From Pseudomonadota bacterium (GTDB lineage Bacteria; Pseudomonadota; Gammaproteobacteria; Burkholderiales; Thiobacillaceae): a DNA stretch of 64,000 bases. Positions 39,748-46,008 of this stretch are shown piece after piece. The stretch is taken from contig JAKADY010000004.1 in NCBI GenBank assembly GCA_021826065.1, forward strand, positions 1 through 64,000, written 5' to 3'. Numbering within the stretch: position 1 is the stretch's first letter; each line of letters opens with the position of its first letter. A program made the position numbers and the translations under genes. Below the pieces are notes generated by a model, which did not search any database, was not told the DNA's origin, and saw only the letters and a list, made by a program, of their open reading frames with translations.

Positions 39748-40197
39748 ATGAAACCCCGACACAAGAAACTCCTCGCCATTGCCCTTTCGGTCGCCGGTCT
39801 GGGCGTGGCCGTCGCCCTCATCCTCAACGCCTTTCAGAACAACCTGGTGTTTTTCTTCAGCCCAAGCCAGGTGATGCGCGGCGAGGCGCCAATCGACCGC
39901 ACCTTCCGCATCGGCGGCATGGTCGAGGAGGGCAGCGTCAAGCGCGAGGCCGACGGGCTCACCGTGCGCTTCGTCGTCACCGACACCGCGCACACCATGC
40001 CGGTCGTCTACAAGGGCGTACTGCCCGACCTGTTCAAGGAGGGCAAAGGCGTGGTCGCCGAGGGCCGGCTGGGCCCGGATGGCCTGTTCACCGCCACGCA
40101 GGTCCTCGCCAAGCATGATGAAAACTACATGCCGCCTGAAGCGGCGCATGCCATCGAGCAGGCGCAGAAGGCCCAGCAAACGGTGGTTAGACCATGA
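39748..40197 (+). CDS. ccmE: Haem chaperone CcmE
   Basis: 149 aa, one N-terminal membrane helix then an OB-fold. Carries haem covalently through His123 in [12 protein letters not shown], the same motif as E. coli. The last 26 codons (from the haem motif on) are tandemly duplicated after the stop codon, see the repeat at 40119-40391. Confidence 0.96.
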
Positions 40198-40391
40198 TGC
40201 GTCATACCGACGCCTGTAGGAGCGGCGAAAGCCGCGACCCAACAGCGCCTGCAACTGAAAACTACATGCCGCCTGAAGCGGCGCATGCCATCGAGCAGGC
40301 GCAGAAGGCCCAGCAAACGGTGGTTAGACCATGATGCGTCAGACGACGCCTGTAGGAGCGGCCAAAGCCGCGACCCAACAGCGCCTGCAAC
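40119..40391 (+). repeat. Tandem duplication of the ccmE 3' end plus a palindrome
   Basis: Copy 1 at 40119-40255 (137 bases) holds the last ccmE codons from ENYMPPE onward, the stop and a TGTAGGAGCGGC palindrome; copy 2 at 40256-40391 (136 bases) repeats it with only a few differences. The duplicated coding piece is identical in sequence but has no start, so copy 2 is not expected to be translated. Confidence 0.93.
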
Positions 40392-40419
40392 TGAAGGTCG
40401 CGACTTACGTCGCTCCTAC
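40352..40419. repeat. REP-like inverted pair before ccmF
   Basis: GTAGGAGCG (40352-40360) and CGCTCCTAC (40411-40419) with inner GC stems (GGC-caaa-GCCGCGACC and GGTCGCGAC). Looks like REP elements arranged as an inverted pair, as known in pseudomonads. Lies 26 bases before the ccmF start. Confidence 0.7.
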
Positions 40420-43398: not shown

Positions 43399-44645
43399 TG
43401 GATCCCACTCTGTCCATCACCCTGTTCTGGGTGCTTGCCACCCTGTTTGCGCTCGCTGCCGGCTACTGGGTCCTGCGCCCGCTGTTCCAGCGCCAGGCGG
43501 CTGTCAGCGCCCACGATCGCCGCGCCCTCAACATCGCCGTCTACCGGGACCAGCTGCGGGAACTCGAACGCGATCGCGACAACGGCCTGCTCAGCGCCGA
43601 CCAGTTCGAGGCCGCCAAACGCGAGCTGGAGGCGCGTCTGGCCGAGGATGCCCTGCGCGAGACCGAGACCCGGATCGAGAGCCGGGGCGGCCGTCGGCTG
43701 GGCTATGCGCTCGGCGTGGCCATCCCCGCCGCGGCCCTCGGGCTATACATGCTGCTGGGCAATCCGGCGGCCATCAACCAGCCCAAGGTCACGCCGGGCA
43801 TGGCGGCGCACGACCTGGAGGCCATGCTGCGCTCGGTGGAGGAGCGGGCGCGCGCCAATCCCCAGGATCCACGTCCTGTCATCCTGCTCGCCCGCACCTA
43901 CACCGCCATGGAGCGCTGGCCCGAGGCCATCGCCGCTTATGAAAAGGCGGTCAAGCTGCTGCCCGAGGACGCCGCCGTCTGGGCCGGCTACGCCGAGGCC
44001 ATGGCGCTCAGCCAGGACCGCGACCTGCGCGGCAAGCCTATGGAGCTGGTGCGCAAGGCATTGTCGCTCAACGGGGATGAACCCACCGCGCTCAACCTCG
44101 CCGGCATCCATGCCTTCATGGAGGGGGATTACGCCCAGGCGGTGACACACTGGCAGCGTCTGCTCAAGCAGATGCCGGTCGGGTCCGAGGAAGCGCAGGC
44201 CATCCAGGATGCCATCCGCGAGGCACGCGGCCGCGCGAGCGCCGCTGGCATCAAGCTGCCCGAGGCCGAGGCGCAGCCCCAAAGCAATGCTGCCACAGCA
44301 GGCGCCGTCATCCGCGGCAGAGTGGTGCTGAGTCCTCAGCTCAAGGATCGTCTGCCCGAAGGGGCCACGCTGTTCGTCGTTGCCCGGCCGGCCGGCGGCG
44401 GCGGCGCACCAGTCGCCGTTTTGCGCGCCGCCGCACGCGAACTGCCCTATGCCTTCGAACTGAATGACAGCCTGGCAATGAACCCGGACAACCGACTGTC
44501 GGCCCATTCCGAGGTCGACCTCGTCGCCCGCATCTCCCGCTCCGGCCAGGCCATGCCCGCCAGTGGCGACCTCGAGGGCAGCCTCGCCCGGGTCAAGCTG
44601 GGCAGCACTGACGTCAACCTGATCATCGACACGGTACGGCCCTGA
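43398..44645 (+). CDS. ccmI: Cytochrome c biogenesis protein CcmI
   Basis: 415 aa. Two N-terminal helices with a cytoplasmic loop (LNIAVYRDQLRELERDRDNG), then TPR repeats at about 130-290 (ILLARTYTAMERWPEAIAAYEKAV) that hold apocytochrome C-termini, and a C-terminal beta domain (GRVVLSPQLKDRLPEGATLFVVAR). The start shares one base with the ccmH stop. Last gene of the ccm operon. Confidence 0.94.
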   Translation: MDPTLSITLFWVLATLFALAAGYWVLRPLFQRQAAVSAHDRRALNIAVYRDQLRELERDRDNGLLSADQFEAAKRELEARLAEDALRETETRIESRGGRRLGYALGVAIPAAALGLYMLLGNPAAINQPKVTPGMAAHDLEAMLRSVEERARANPQDPRPVILLARTYTAMERWPEAIAAYEKAVKLLPEDAAVWAGYAEAMALSQDRDLRGKPMELVRKALSLNGDEPTALNLAGIHAFMEGDYAQAVTHWQRLLKQMPVGSEEAQAIQDAIREARGRASAAGIKLPEAEAQPQSNAATAGAVIRGRVVLSPQLKDRLPEGATLFVVARPAGGGGAPVAVLRAAARELPYAFELNDSLAMNPDNRLSAHSEVDLVARISRSGQAMPASGDLEGSLARVKLGSTDVNLIIDTVRP

Positions 44646-44660
44646 GCACCGGCACCTGGC

Positions 44661-45408
44661 TCAGGGCACCCCGGCGATTTCCTCCGCCGACGCCCCCGCT
44701 GATGTTCCAGAAGCGGTCTGAACCCCCATCAACGGCCGCATCGCGCTGAGCAGGTTGGCAAACAGCTGCGGATGCTCCTGCTCCAGCTCGGCCAGTAGGC
44801 GTTTCATCCGAAATCGCTGCTGCGGTGCGGCGAAACACGCCGGGCATTTTGGCTCCGGCCGCCCGCTCGCGCGGGCTTAACCTGCCTGACGGCAGGTTAA
44901 CCTACGCCGAAACCCGACCTGCCTTCGGTGGGCCGCGTTCATAGCAGATACCCCTGTAGCTTCGTCTCGATCATCCTCGGGTTTTGGCTCCGGCCGCCCG
45001 CTGGCGCGGGCTTAACATCCGCTGCGCGGATGTTAGCCTCCACCGAAACTGCCCGGCTCGTCCTCAACCTGCCCCAGCAACGGCCGCATCGCGCTCAACA
45101 GATTGGCAAACACCCGCGGATACTCCTGCTCCAGCTCCGCCAGCAGGCGTTTCATCCGAAATCGCTGCTGCGGTGTGGCGAAACACGCCGGGCAGTTTTG
45201 GCTCCGGCCGCCCGCTGGCGCGGGCTTAACATCCGCTGCGCGGATGTTAGCCTCCACCGAAACTGCCCAGCTCGTCCTCAACCTGCCCCATCAACGGTCG
45301 CATCGCGCTCAACAGATTGGCAAACAGTCGCGGATGCTCCCGCTCCAGCTCCGCCAGCAGGCGCTTCATGCGAAATCGCTGCTGCGGTGCGGCGAAACAC
45401 GCCGGGCA
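44661..45408 (-). repeat. Three tandem copies of the ttcA 3' end with palindromic spacers
   Basis: Reading on the minus strand, ttcA ends with the segment from its second CxxC to the stop. That piece recurs twice more downstream. Units 45195-45408 (inside and just after ttcA) and 44981-45194 are exact-length 214-base tandem repeats; a third coding copy is at about 44661-44846. Each keeps an open frame from CPACF to a stop. Spacers hold hairpins such as TAACATCCG / CGGATGTTA; the third spacer has a different but equally paired hairpin (TTAACCTGCC / GGCAGGTTAA). Copy 3 ends in a different tail (VQTASGTSAGASAEEIAGVP). Confidence 0.92.
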
Positions 45409-46008
45409 GTTTTCCTGGACGACAGGGAGTCCTGCGCGGGTGGCGAAGTCGCGGGTCTGGCGTTCGCGCACGTAGACGAAGGGGCGGATGACGTGGATGT
45501 CGCCGGCGTCGTTCAGATAGTGCGCCCGCATGGTCCTCAGCTTGCCACCGAAGAAGGCGCTCATGAGGAAGGTCTCGACCAGGTCGTCCAGGTGTTGCGC
45601 CAGGGCCAGCACGTTGTAGCCCTGCTCGCGCGCCACCCTGTAGAGGATGCCGCGGCGCATGCGTGAACAATAGGCGCAGAAGGAGTCCCCGCGCATGTGC
45701 TCGCCGGCCTGCGCGACGATGGGCTGACTCTCGTAGAAATACGGCACGCCGAGCGCGTTCATGTAGGGGATGAGCGGCGCCGGGTCGTAGTCGGGCGATT
45801 GCGGGTCCACGGTGCAGGCCGCCAGCTCGAAGCGGATGGGCGCGCGCGCCTTGAGGTGCAGCAGCACGTGCAACAGCGACAGGCTGTCCTTGCCGCCGGA
45901 AAGACCCAGCAGCACCCGGTCGCCGGCGCGGATCATGCCGTAGTCGCCGATCGCCTTGCCGGCGGCCGTGACCAGCGGGCGCGGAGGCTTGACGGGACCG
46001 GGATTCAC
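45247..46008 (-). CDS. ttcA: tRNA 2-thiocytidine synthetase TtcA
   Basis: 253 aa. Makes s2C32 in tRNA with a [4Fe-4S] cluster. PP-loop LSGGKDSLSLL near 35-45; first Cys pair CAYC in DSFCAYCSRMRRG; second Cys pair CPAC near 200. Shorter than E. coli TtcA (311 aa), mostly at the ends. Everything after the second Cys pair is the piece repeated downstream. Overlaps the TlpA-like gene by 4 bases. Confidence 0.94.
   Translation of the reverse strand: MNPGPVKPPRPLVTAAGKAIGDYGMIRAGDRVLLGLSGGKDSLSLLHVLLHLKARAPIRFELAACTVDPQSPDYDPAPLIPYMNALGVPYFYESQPIVAQAGEHMRGDSFCAYCSRMRRGILYRVAREQGYNVLALAQHLDDLVETFLMSAFFGGKLRTMRAHYLNDAGDIHVIRPFVYVRERQTRDFATRAGLPVVQENCPACFAAPQQRFRMKRLLAELEREHPRLFANLLSAMRPLMGQVEDELGSFGGG

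Follow-up and report, generated by a model that had tools for sequence, protein, structure and literature searches.

Integrative elements and prophages (e14/icd, ssrA islands) provide their target gene with a new 3′ end, the old one being left at the far junction; they are kilobases long and encode an integrase. The units described below are similar in that they lie near the end of a conserved gene or a tRNA gene and would supply a replacement end, whereas they are mostly about 150 nt long, do not encode a protein and are matched to many different genes within one genome. MITEs are small, non-autonomous and dispersed, and so is the palindromic element of these units, termed X, which also occurs inside MITE-like repeats (G005, G056). 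In contrast to MITEs, X shows no short fixed target duplication, and its outer arm varies with the target, whereas the terminal inverted repeats of MITEs are fixed. The foot of X, which covaries with the target pentamer, and an arm, termed E, that pairs with the beginning of the unit, termed S, might correspond to the guide pairing of IS200/IS605 elements, but copying could explain them as well. REP, BIME and REPIN sequences share with X the extragenic palindromes, the many dispersed copies and the single-strand folding, and the G-N-A-G foot of X may correspond to their tag. They are arranged as inverted pairs, while X copies stand head-to-tail with gene ends between them, and, unlike in the REP/RAYT systems, the abundance of X does not track Y1 genes. 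In the accessible part of a paper on REP sequences the string "tandem" occurs 8 times and "duplicat" never (PMC3733652). The Rickettsia palindromic elements are short palindromic repeats that lie in frame within protein genes and encode a peptide, as far as the available part of their description goes (PMC10969869). X likewise lies in frame in genes for Mpl and an RND pump; compared by description, the Rickettsia elements differ in that this part of the source presents them neither as carrying or duplicating a host 3′ end nor as having a target-complementary arm (PMC10969869). No account of the pattern reported here was found in the literature searched, mainly abstracts and open papers.

The repeated 3′ end of ttcA

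The window, i.e., the whole stretch of 64,000 nucleotides that was analysed, contains a ttcA-like gene (Table 1). Its product has a PP-loop domain (PF01171, above cut-off), and its top NCBIfam match is PRK10696 TtcA (E 5.8e-67), at 226 bits below the cut-off of 272. As the preliminary description stated, the 3′ end of this gene is present three times in the window (copies 1, 2 and 3, counted from the assembly sequence), and the homologous frame is open in all three. Copies 1 and 2 with their tails constitute a 214-base tandem repeat with 95% identity, and the copy 3 stretch lies 348 positions further along, with 63% identity across the same 214 ungapped bases. The shared bases reported earlier were also recovered: CGGATGAAA is common to copies 2 and 3, where copy 1 has CGCATGAAG. 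Copies 1 and 2 terminate with ...GSFGGG and a stop inside element X, and the distinct tail and stop of copy 3 (...SAEEIAGVP) were found as described. This tail is probably the native end of ttcA, since it resembles the tail of the last copy in a relative (L028). The 5′ part of ttcA is not joined to copies 2 and 3. The copies are separated by multi-hairpin elements X of 68–69 nt, and between copies 2 and 3 there is an extra unit with the 3′ end of a foreign gene, that of a MotA-type flagellar motor protein.

Table 1. Features of the ttcA array and of the ccmE repeat, in window positions
Feature	Position	Strand	Remark
ttcA-like gene, PP-loop tRNA thiolase family	45247..46008	-	open reading frame, read 46008..45247; last codons ...GSFGGG and stop extend into X
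Copy 1, ttcA 3′ end	45274..45413	-	begins at G|AAAAC target site between 45414 and 45413
Arm E, unit 1	45259..45273	-	11/13 complementary to copy 1 start
Element X1	45195..45263	-	outer stem and two hairpins
Copy 2, ttcA 3′ end	45060..45199	-	repeat comparison
Arm E, unit 2	45045..45059	-	12/15 match to copy 2 start
Element X2	44981..45049	-	X match
Foreign unit start, MotA-type gene 3′ end (NPRMIETKLQGYLL and stop)	44914..44985	-	
Element X3	44846..44913	-	HP1 stem sequence differs, complementarity kept
Copy 3, ttcA 3′ end with own tail and stop	44661..44850	-	
ccmE	39748..40197	+	repeat 40119-40207 and 40256-40344, 137 apart

An assembly error is unlikely as a general explanation of the copies, since a genome closed in a single contig shows this architecture, as do other genomes. 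Many X matches lie near contig ends of draft genomes, as if the repeats break assemblies. Both the element and the duplication also occur at other genes, and ttcA is not unusual in this respect.

Element X, its targets and its target-complementary arm

According to an alignment of 24 copies from the own genome, X is about 69 nt long and has a T-shaped fold composed of an outer stem and two hairpins. In 7 of the 17 predicted pairs both sides are altered, yet still paired, in at least one sequence, and in the stem of the first hairpin (HP1) up to 10 of the 24 copies carry a compensatory change at one pair. Six single copies were tested and all fold better than their shuffles (z from -2.8 to -4.4). 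The foot is G-N-A-G with a variable N (GTAG in many copies), to which a second hairpin and the outer stem are added. In some copies one frame is open through the whole element (69 nt). A known structured RNA family was rejected as the identity of X in the stretch 44600-45500 of the window, where Rfam gave no more than two matches, scoring 19.9 and 19.6 bits and thus below the gathering score of 45. Carriage by plasmids or phages was set aside as well, after collections of both, searched at a sensitivity meant for distant sequences, returned no match to the same stretch; the boxes of attC sites or integron cassettes, inspected by eye, did not fit.

The own genome holds 24 strong matches to the X of ttcA, and 37 matches with a covariance model. 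With this model X was found in 39 of 61 genomes and, at a stricter limit, in 4 of 369 genomes of the class, the own genome being included in both counts and weak matches being lost to the stricter filters of both searches; X is therefore a lineage-restricted repeat. Two of the 61 genomes have at least 81 matches each, and a closed genome of the same family (G005) has 64. Apart from gene ends, one genome has X repeated in tandem about every 69 bp without an intervening gene end (L151-L153, G003), and an X whose left hairpin is minimal occurs within dispersed MITE-like repeats of two families of the order (L203-L213 in G056; L221 and L223-L225 in G005).

The architecture seen at ttcA recurs over many genes and in several genera. 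In the own genome X stands behind duplicated ends of acs, argF, a motA-type gene, ftsW, accB, dapD, recR and one tRNA-Ser gene, and in relatives behind those of ccmE, glmS, cheY, nrdB, folE2, an alanine transaminase gene and tRNA-Ser genes. The loci of G005 comprise all 64 X matches of that genome, while those outside G000 and G005 are mostly the best-scoring X matches among those listed. Above the NCBIfam cut-off the target products are acetate-CoA ligase, ornithine carbamoyltransferase, FtsW, BCCP, DapD, RecR, the MotA-type protein, GlmS, CheY, PstB, FolE2, CcmE, aspartate kinase, Mpl, the RND pump and alanine transaminase; NrdB is named only below it, from a fragment of 128 aa, and the proteins of L013, L131 and L149 received no NCBIfam name. 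Two further genes we take to be norD-like and NDUFA12-like, names to which profile searches gave no support. At pstB the gene end is followed by a paired arm and X, and no second copy was recognised there. The duplicated stretches range from tens of nt to more than 100 nt. In G005, 10 of the 64 X lie within a dispersed MITE-like repeat; among the other 54, the similarity of left and right flank exceeds 95% of the mismatched-flank null in 30, in 19 of which the right copy starts at most 8 nt from the end of X, and in the last 24 no duplication of the flanks exceeds this level.

X is also found in frame inside genes, i.e., those of Mpl (L102) and of a CzcA-type RND pump (L139), with the open frame running through X and the best models matching in three and two stretches, respectively. 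The in-frame insertions add about 25–30 residues (VSAQANMREAHVKPQSGGRSQN-like). Similar in-frame insertions were recognised by eye at L100 and L112. An aspartate kinase (L130) ends with ...ELENEVSVKA and a stop, a tail that is read from X. Annotators should note that in these bacteria several genes have a C-terminal tail that derives from the element. X-type insertions are present in tRNA genes as well, with duplicated 5′ tRNA fragments (L011, L108, L134, L153, L247) and an insertion point that was placed by eye in the anticodon-loop region. ARAGORN called tRNA-Ser tga in L011, L134 and L153, tRNA-Ser gga in L108 and tRNA-Phe gaa in L247, and no tRNA in L123 and L148.

A G|AAAAY-like site, in many cases an in-frame Glu-Asn pair, marks the start of the first copy; among the 74 distinct S/E pairs kept, the preceding base is G in 62. 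Besides AAAAC, AAAAT and AAAAG, the site may be a variant such as ACTAC or ACAAC, and later copies begin directly after the ...GCC-like end of X. Arm E lies directly before X and is complementary to the first ~13 nt (S) of its own unit: at least 12 of 15 positions match in 53 of 121 X, as against 7 of 605 shuffled-arm controls, the best site being picked by match for observed and shuffled arms alike. The outer arm of X varies with the target (GTTTC with AAAAC, GTTGC with ACAAC, GTAGC or GTAAC with ACTAC, GTATC with AATAC, CTTTC with AAAAG), and within a gene the same site recurs across several genera, in comparisons of outer arm with target and of the same site whose control set contained related X copies. 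The GTTT-type foot varies together with both the target pentamer and the right end of X.

When the own S was compared with the S to the right of X, the two differed at 164 positions, of which E followed the own S at 142, the right-hand S at 4 and neither of them at 18 (65 X, out of 110 with a good own S and 176 examined); the own S was selected by best match, which biases the agreement upward. In argF and ccmE, E covaries with its own S between species, the orthologue pairs being read by eye. The argF codons AAT CGA CTG, AAC CGC CTG and AAC AGG CTC, found in different species, each stand with a matching arm. When arms were swapped between species, the own arm of argF matched at 12.29 of 13 positions and the swapped one at 10.14, which 144 of 20000 permutations reached; for ccmE the values were 10.25 and 9.14, reached by 68 of 20000. 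Only these two of the eight genes were significant in a test whose script took several acs, norD-like and ccmE arms out of register. Differences for ftsW (12.50 own, 9.83 swapped) and an unnamed gene (L121/L131/L138; 12.67 and 9.00) come from too few distinct sequences, three or four; the difference was small for acs, the norD-like gene and ttcA, and recR showed no own-arm advantage (7.33 own, 8.00 swapped).

Unit length is clustered. In 26 of the 38 loci chosen out of those fetched (the spurious L125 copy being left out) the spacing from the first to the next copy is 141–152 nt, regardless of the gene, and in 12 it falls outside this range, as in ttcA (214, 332, 210) and one unnamed gene (191, 327, 176). 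From site to X the median distance over 74 distinct pairs is 84 nt; a second class is shorter, at 18–51 nt, and genes in which the stop is more distant from the site, ttcA among them, have longer values.

Divergence, alleles and movement of the copies

The recognisable copies differ mostly synonymously. In the same 38 loci, the 38 last copies differ from the first ones by 158 synonymous and 73 amino-acid-changing codons (synonymous fraction 0.68), and 22 internal copies by 74 and 23 (0.76). Random change would give a fraction of 0.19, and about 0.32 was calculated for a constrained first copy and a free second one at equal mutation rates. Only copies above an alignment score or with at least 62% identity were counted, so that decayed ones are under-represented; last copies are visibly decayed at L009, L010 and L014, and no second copy above threshold was found at L257, L261, L265, L296, L297 and L232. 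The extremes are ccmE at L105 (11 synonymous, 0 replacement), glmS at L145 (6/0) and the last copy of recR at L019 (6/0). Copies are identical at L127 and L136 (0/0), L095 and L013, and one codon apart at L146. The preliminary description had proposed, as one reading, that the copies decay after repeated duplication driven by a palindrome. It is right about the palindrome, but free decay of the recognisable copies does not fit synonymous fractions so far above the neutral 0.19, and a plain duplication with subsequent neutral loss is thus insufficient as an explanation. Either the units come already diverged from an orthologous gene, or the copies alternated in use.

Mutagenic copying of the first copy, as a source of its unusual codons, was considered and rejected: GC3 is 0.811 in first copies, 0.801 in last copies and 0.908 in gene bodies (totals that include the one spurious copy, L125), and with first and last so close the first copy shows no bias of its own. 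Beyond the site, synonymous divergence appears raised in ccmE, argF, the norD-like and the motA-type gene, a comparison made without formal control and not relied upon; it is not raised in recR, ftsW and one unnamed gene. For no first copy was a donor allele found. The only hint comes from distances among ccmE sequences, by which the first copy may not be native in G005 and G001.

Two further MAGs have X at the same ttcA site (L028, L032). One of them holds, on two contigs, an X-filled (L028) and an X-free ttcA end (L058), whose flanks are nearly identical (73/73 and 264/265 aligned bases). Over 135 bases compared, L058 agrees with copy 1 only at three sites, with the last copy only, including its tail, at six, and with neither at three; it is either a recombinant or deletion allele or an older empty allele. 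None of the other 13 ttcA relatives listed (among 33 loci) has X behind ttcA. Free decay of copies that never exchange with ttcA is thus not what the relatives display, in view of the synonymous excess and the L058 allele.

The MotA-type unit is present at its own locus (L014), in the ttcA array of the window and, diverged, in a further array (L013). Foreign loci thus acquire entire units, either through transposition or because one X copy recombines with another.

Possible routes of duplication

We give about an even chance to the reading in which a small non-autonomous mobile element, with X as its structured end, lands at gene 3′ ends. The unit would consist of AAAAY, the 3′ end of the target with its stop, arm E and the T-shaped X ending with GCC, and would land directly behind a G|AAAAY-like site, close to where a conserved gene ends. 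The gene would then read into the copy of its own end provided by the unit and so keep its function, while the displaced original end would remain downstream of X and decay, and repeated events or exchange between X copies would build arrays. On this account the first copy may be the newcomer, pairing of S with E may matter for movement, and units may move as wholes, as the motA-type unit inside the ttcA array suggests. In favour of the reading are the recurrence of X over many genes and genomes, the compensatory changes in HP1, the complementarity of S and E with its covariation in argF and ccmE, the flank duplications of G005, the clustered spacing and the synonymous excess. The motA-type unit could also have entered by homologous recombination between X copies, which counts against a mobile element, as do the identical copies at some loci, such as plain duplication would give. 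Other points against it are that no enzyme family tested tracks X, that 24 of the 54 X in G005 lack a flank duplication above the null, that six of the eight permuted genes gave no significant difference, that no first copy has a donor allele found for it, and that 12 of the 38 spacings fall outside the common range. If the reading is true, small DNA elements colonise essential genes without killing the host and layer old gene ends behind them; should the arm guide insertion, mobile DNA without any protein-coding capacity would be choosing its targets by a new principle.

A stronger version, which we regard as doubtful, is a true guided homing by units of about 150 nt that encode no protein of their own. 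Arm E would serve as a replaceable guide that pairs with conserved codons of one target gene; the unit would insert at G|AAAAY and supply a complete, synonymously different end, leaving the host unharmed, and such units would spread between lineages gene by gene. It would mean target-specific mobile DNA that carries its own address together with the repair of the damage it causes.

The main rival, in our view rather unlikely, is template switching at the palindrome during replication, with no dedicated transposase. The nascent strand would fold back and make E from S, jump into X by GTTT/AAAAC microhomology and return to the AAAAC site, which would result in a duplication flanking X, and later quasipalindrome correction would keep E equal to S. 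Template switching accounts for E following its own S, and it gains from the search for machinery, in which none of the three enzyme families tested, i.e., resident Y1, reverse transcriptase and Y2 genes, tracks X. Y1 (PF01797) was not found in G002, G016, G030 and G056 despite their 22, 46, 28 and 45 X; conversely, G004, G006, G017, G031 and G055 have Y1 but no X at E 0.01, and seven other X-bearing genomes searched have 1–3 Y1 genes each, with no link to X shown. Mobilisation of IS200/IS605 or RAYT type by a resident Y1 was thus rejected, although the guide geometry fits. The start of the duplication at AAAA, next to an element end in ...AAAA, would fit target-primed reverse transcription, which was discarded with RVT_1 found in 6 of the 17 genomes searched and not found in 9 of the 12 X-bearing ones (G000-G003, G016, G023, G030, G036, G056). 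IS91-type rolling-circle mobilisation was dismissed as well, Y2 (PF04986) being present in 1 of 9 X-bearing genomes, the own one. Beside what appear to be other repeat families, not X, a gene for a Y1 transposase of 163 aa was noticed (L061, C74:47636), perhaps a RAYT of another REP family.

Template switching is further favoured by ccmE of the window. A stretch of 89 nt is repeated there with 99% identity from a TGAAAAC site (40119-40395), i.e., at a GAAAAC-type site, with a GTAG-type palindrome in place of X and a joint apparently made at TGAA microhomology; a clear X occupies the same ccmE site in six relatives (G001, G005, G012, G013, G016, G030). Mismatches between S and E of G.T and A.C type number 15 and 12, and the absence of a clear excess in this wobble-asymmetry strand test is expected if copying, and not pairing, maintains E. 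Template switching, however, predicts neither the near-constant spacing of 141–152 nt (26/38 loci), nor the recurrence at the same site of the same gene across genera, nor the mostly synonymous difference between copies. Even with an enzyme-free origin, these loci would record template switching in nature, reproducibly and with products of nearly constant size.

Quite improbable is a long target-site duplication made by a conventional transposase, with survivorship of those insertions near the stop that duplicate the whole gene end. The loci with identical copies (L127 and L136, each 0/0) agree with it, as do the median of 84 nt from site to X, longer where the stop is further away, and the in-frame insertions in Mpl and the RND pump, which need no copy of a gene end. 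Under such a mechanism, however, the downstream copy decays from birth, so that a synonymous fraction of about 0.32 is expected against the 0.68 of the last copies, and the match of E to its own S, not the right-hand S, is left unexplained.

That the copies are silent 3′ cassettes that switch C-termini, as first supposed for ttcA, is very improbable, for all the open frames kept and the mosaic end of L058 with its downstream tail, because the alternative ends mostly encode nearly the same peptide and the genes involved are housekeeping enzymes and tRNAs. The analysis, directed at transposases and reverse transcriptases, brought no switching machinery to notice. With the pattern spread over many unrelated housekeeping genes the cassette idea is not needed, and what persists of it is a possible exchange between copies (L058); the idea of a palindrome comes closer, although the system is more orderly than it implies. 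The ttcA gene of another MAG (L029) carries, free of X, an in-frame tandem duplication of about 66 nt within its 3′ end.
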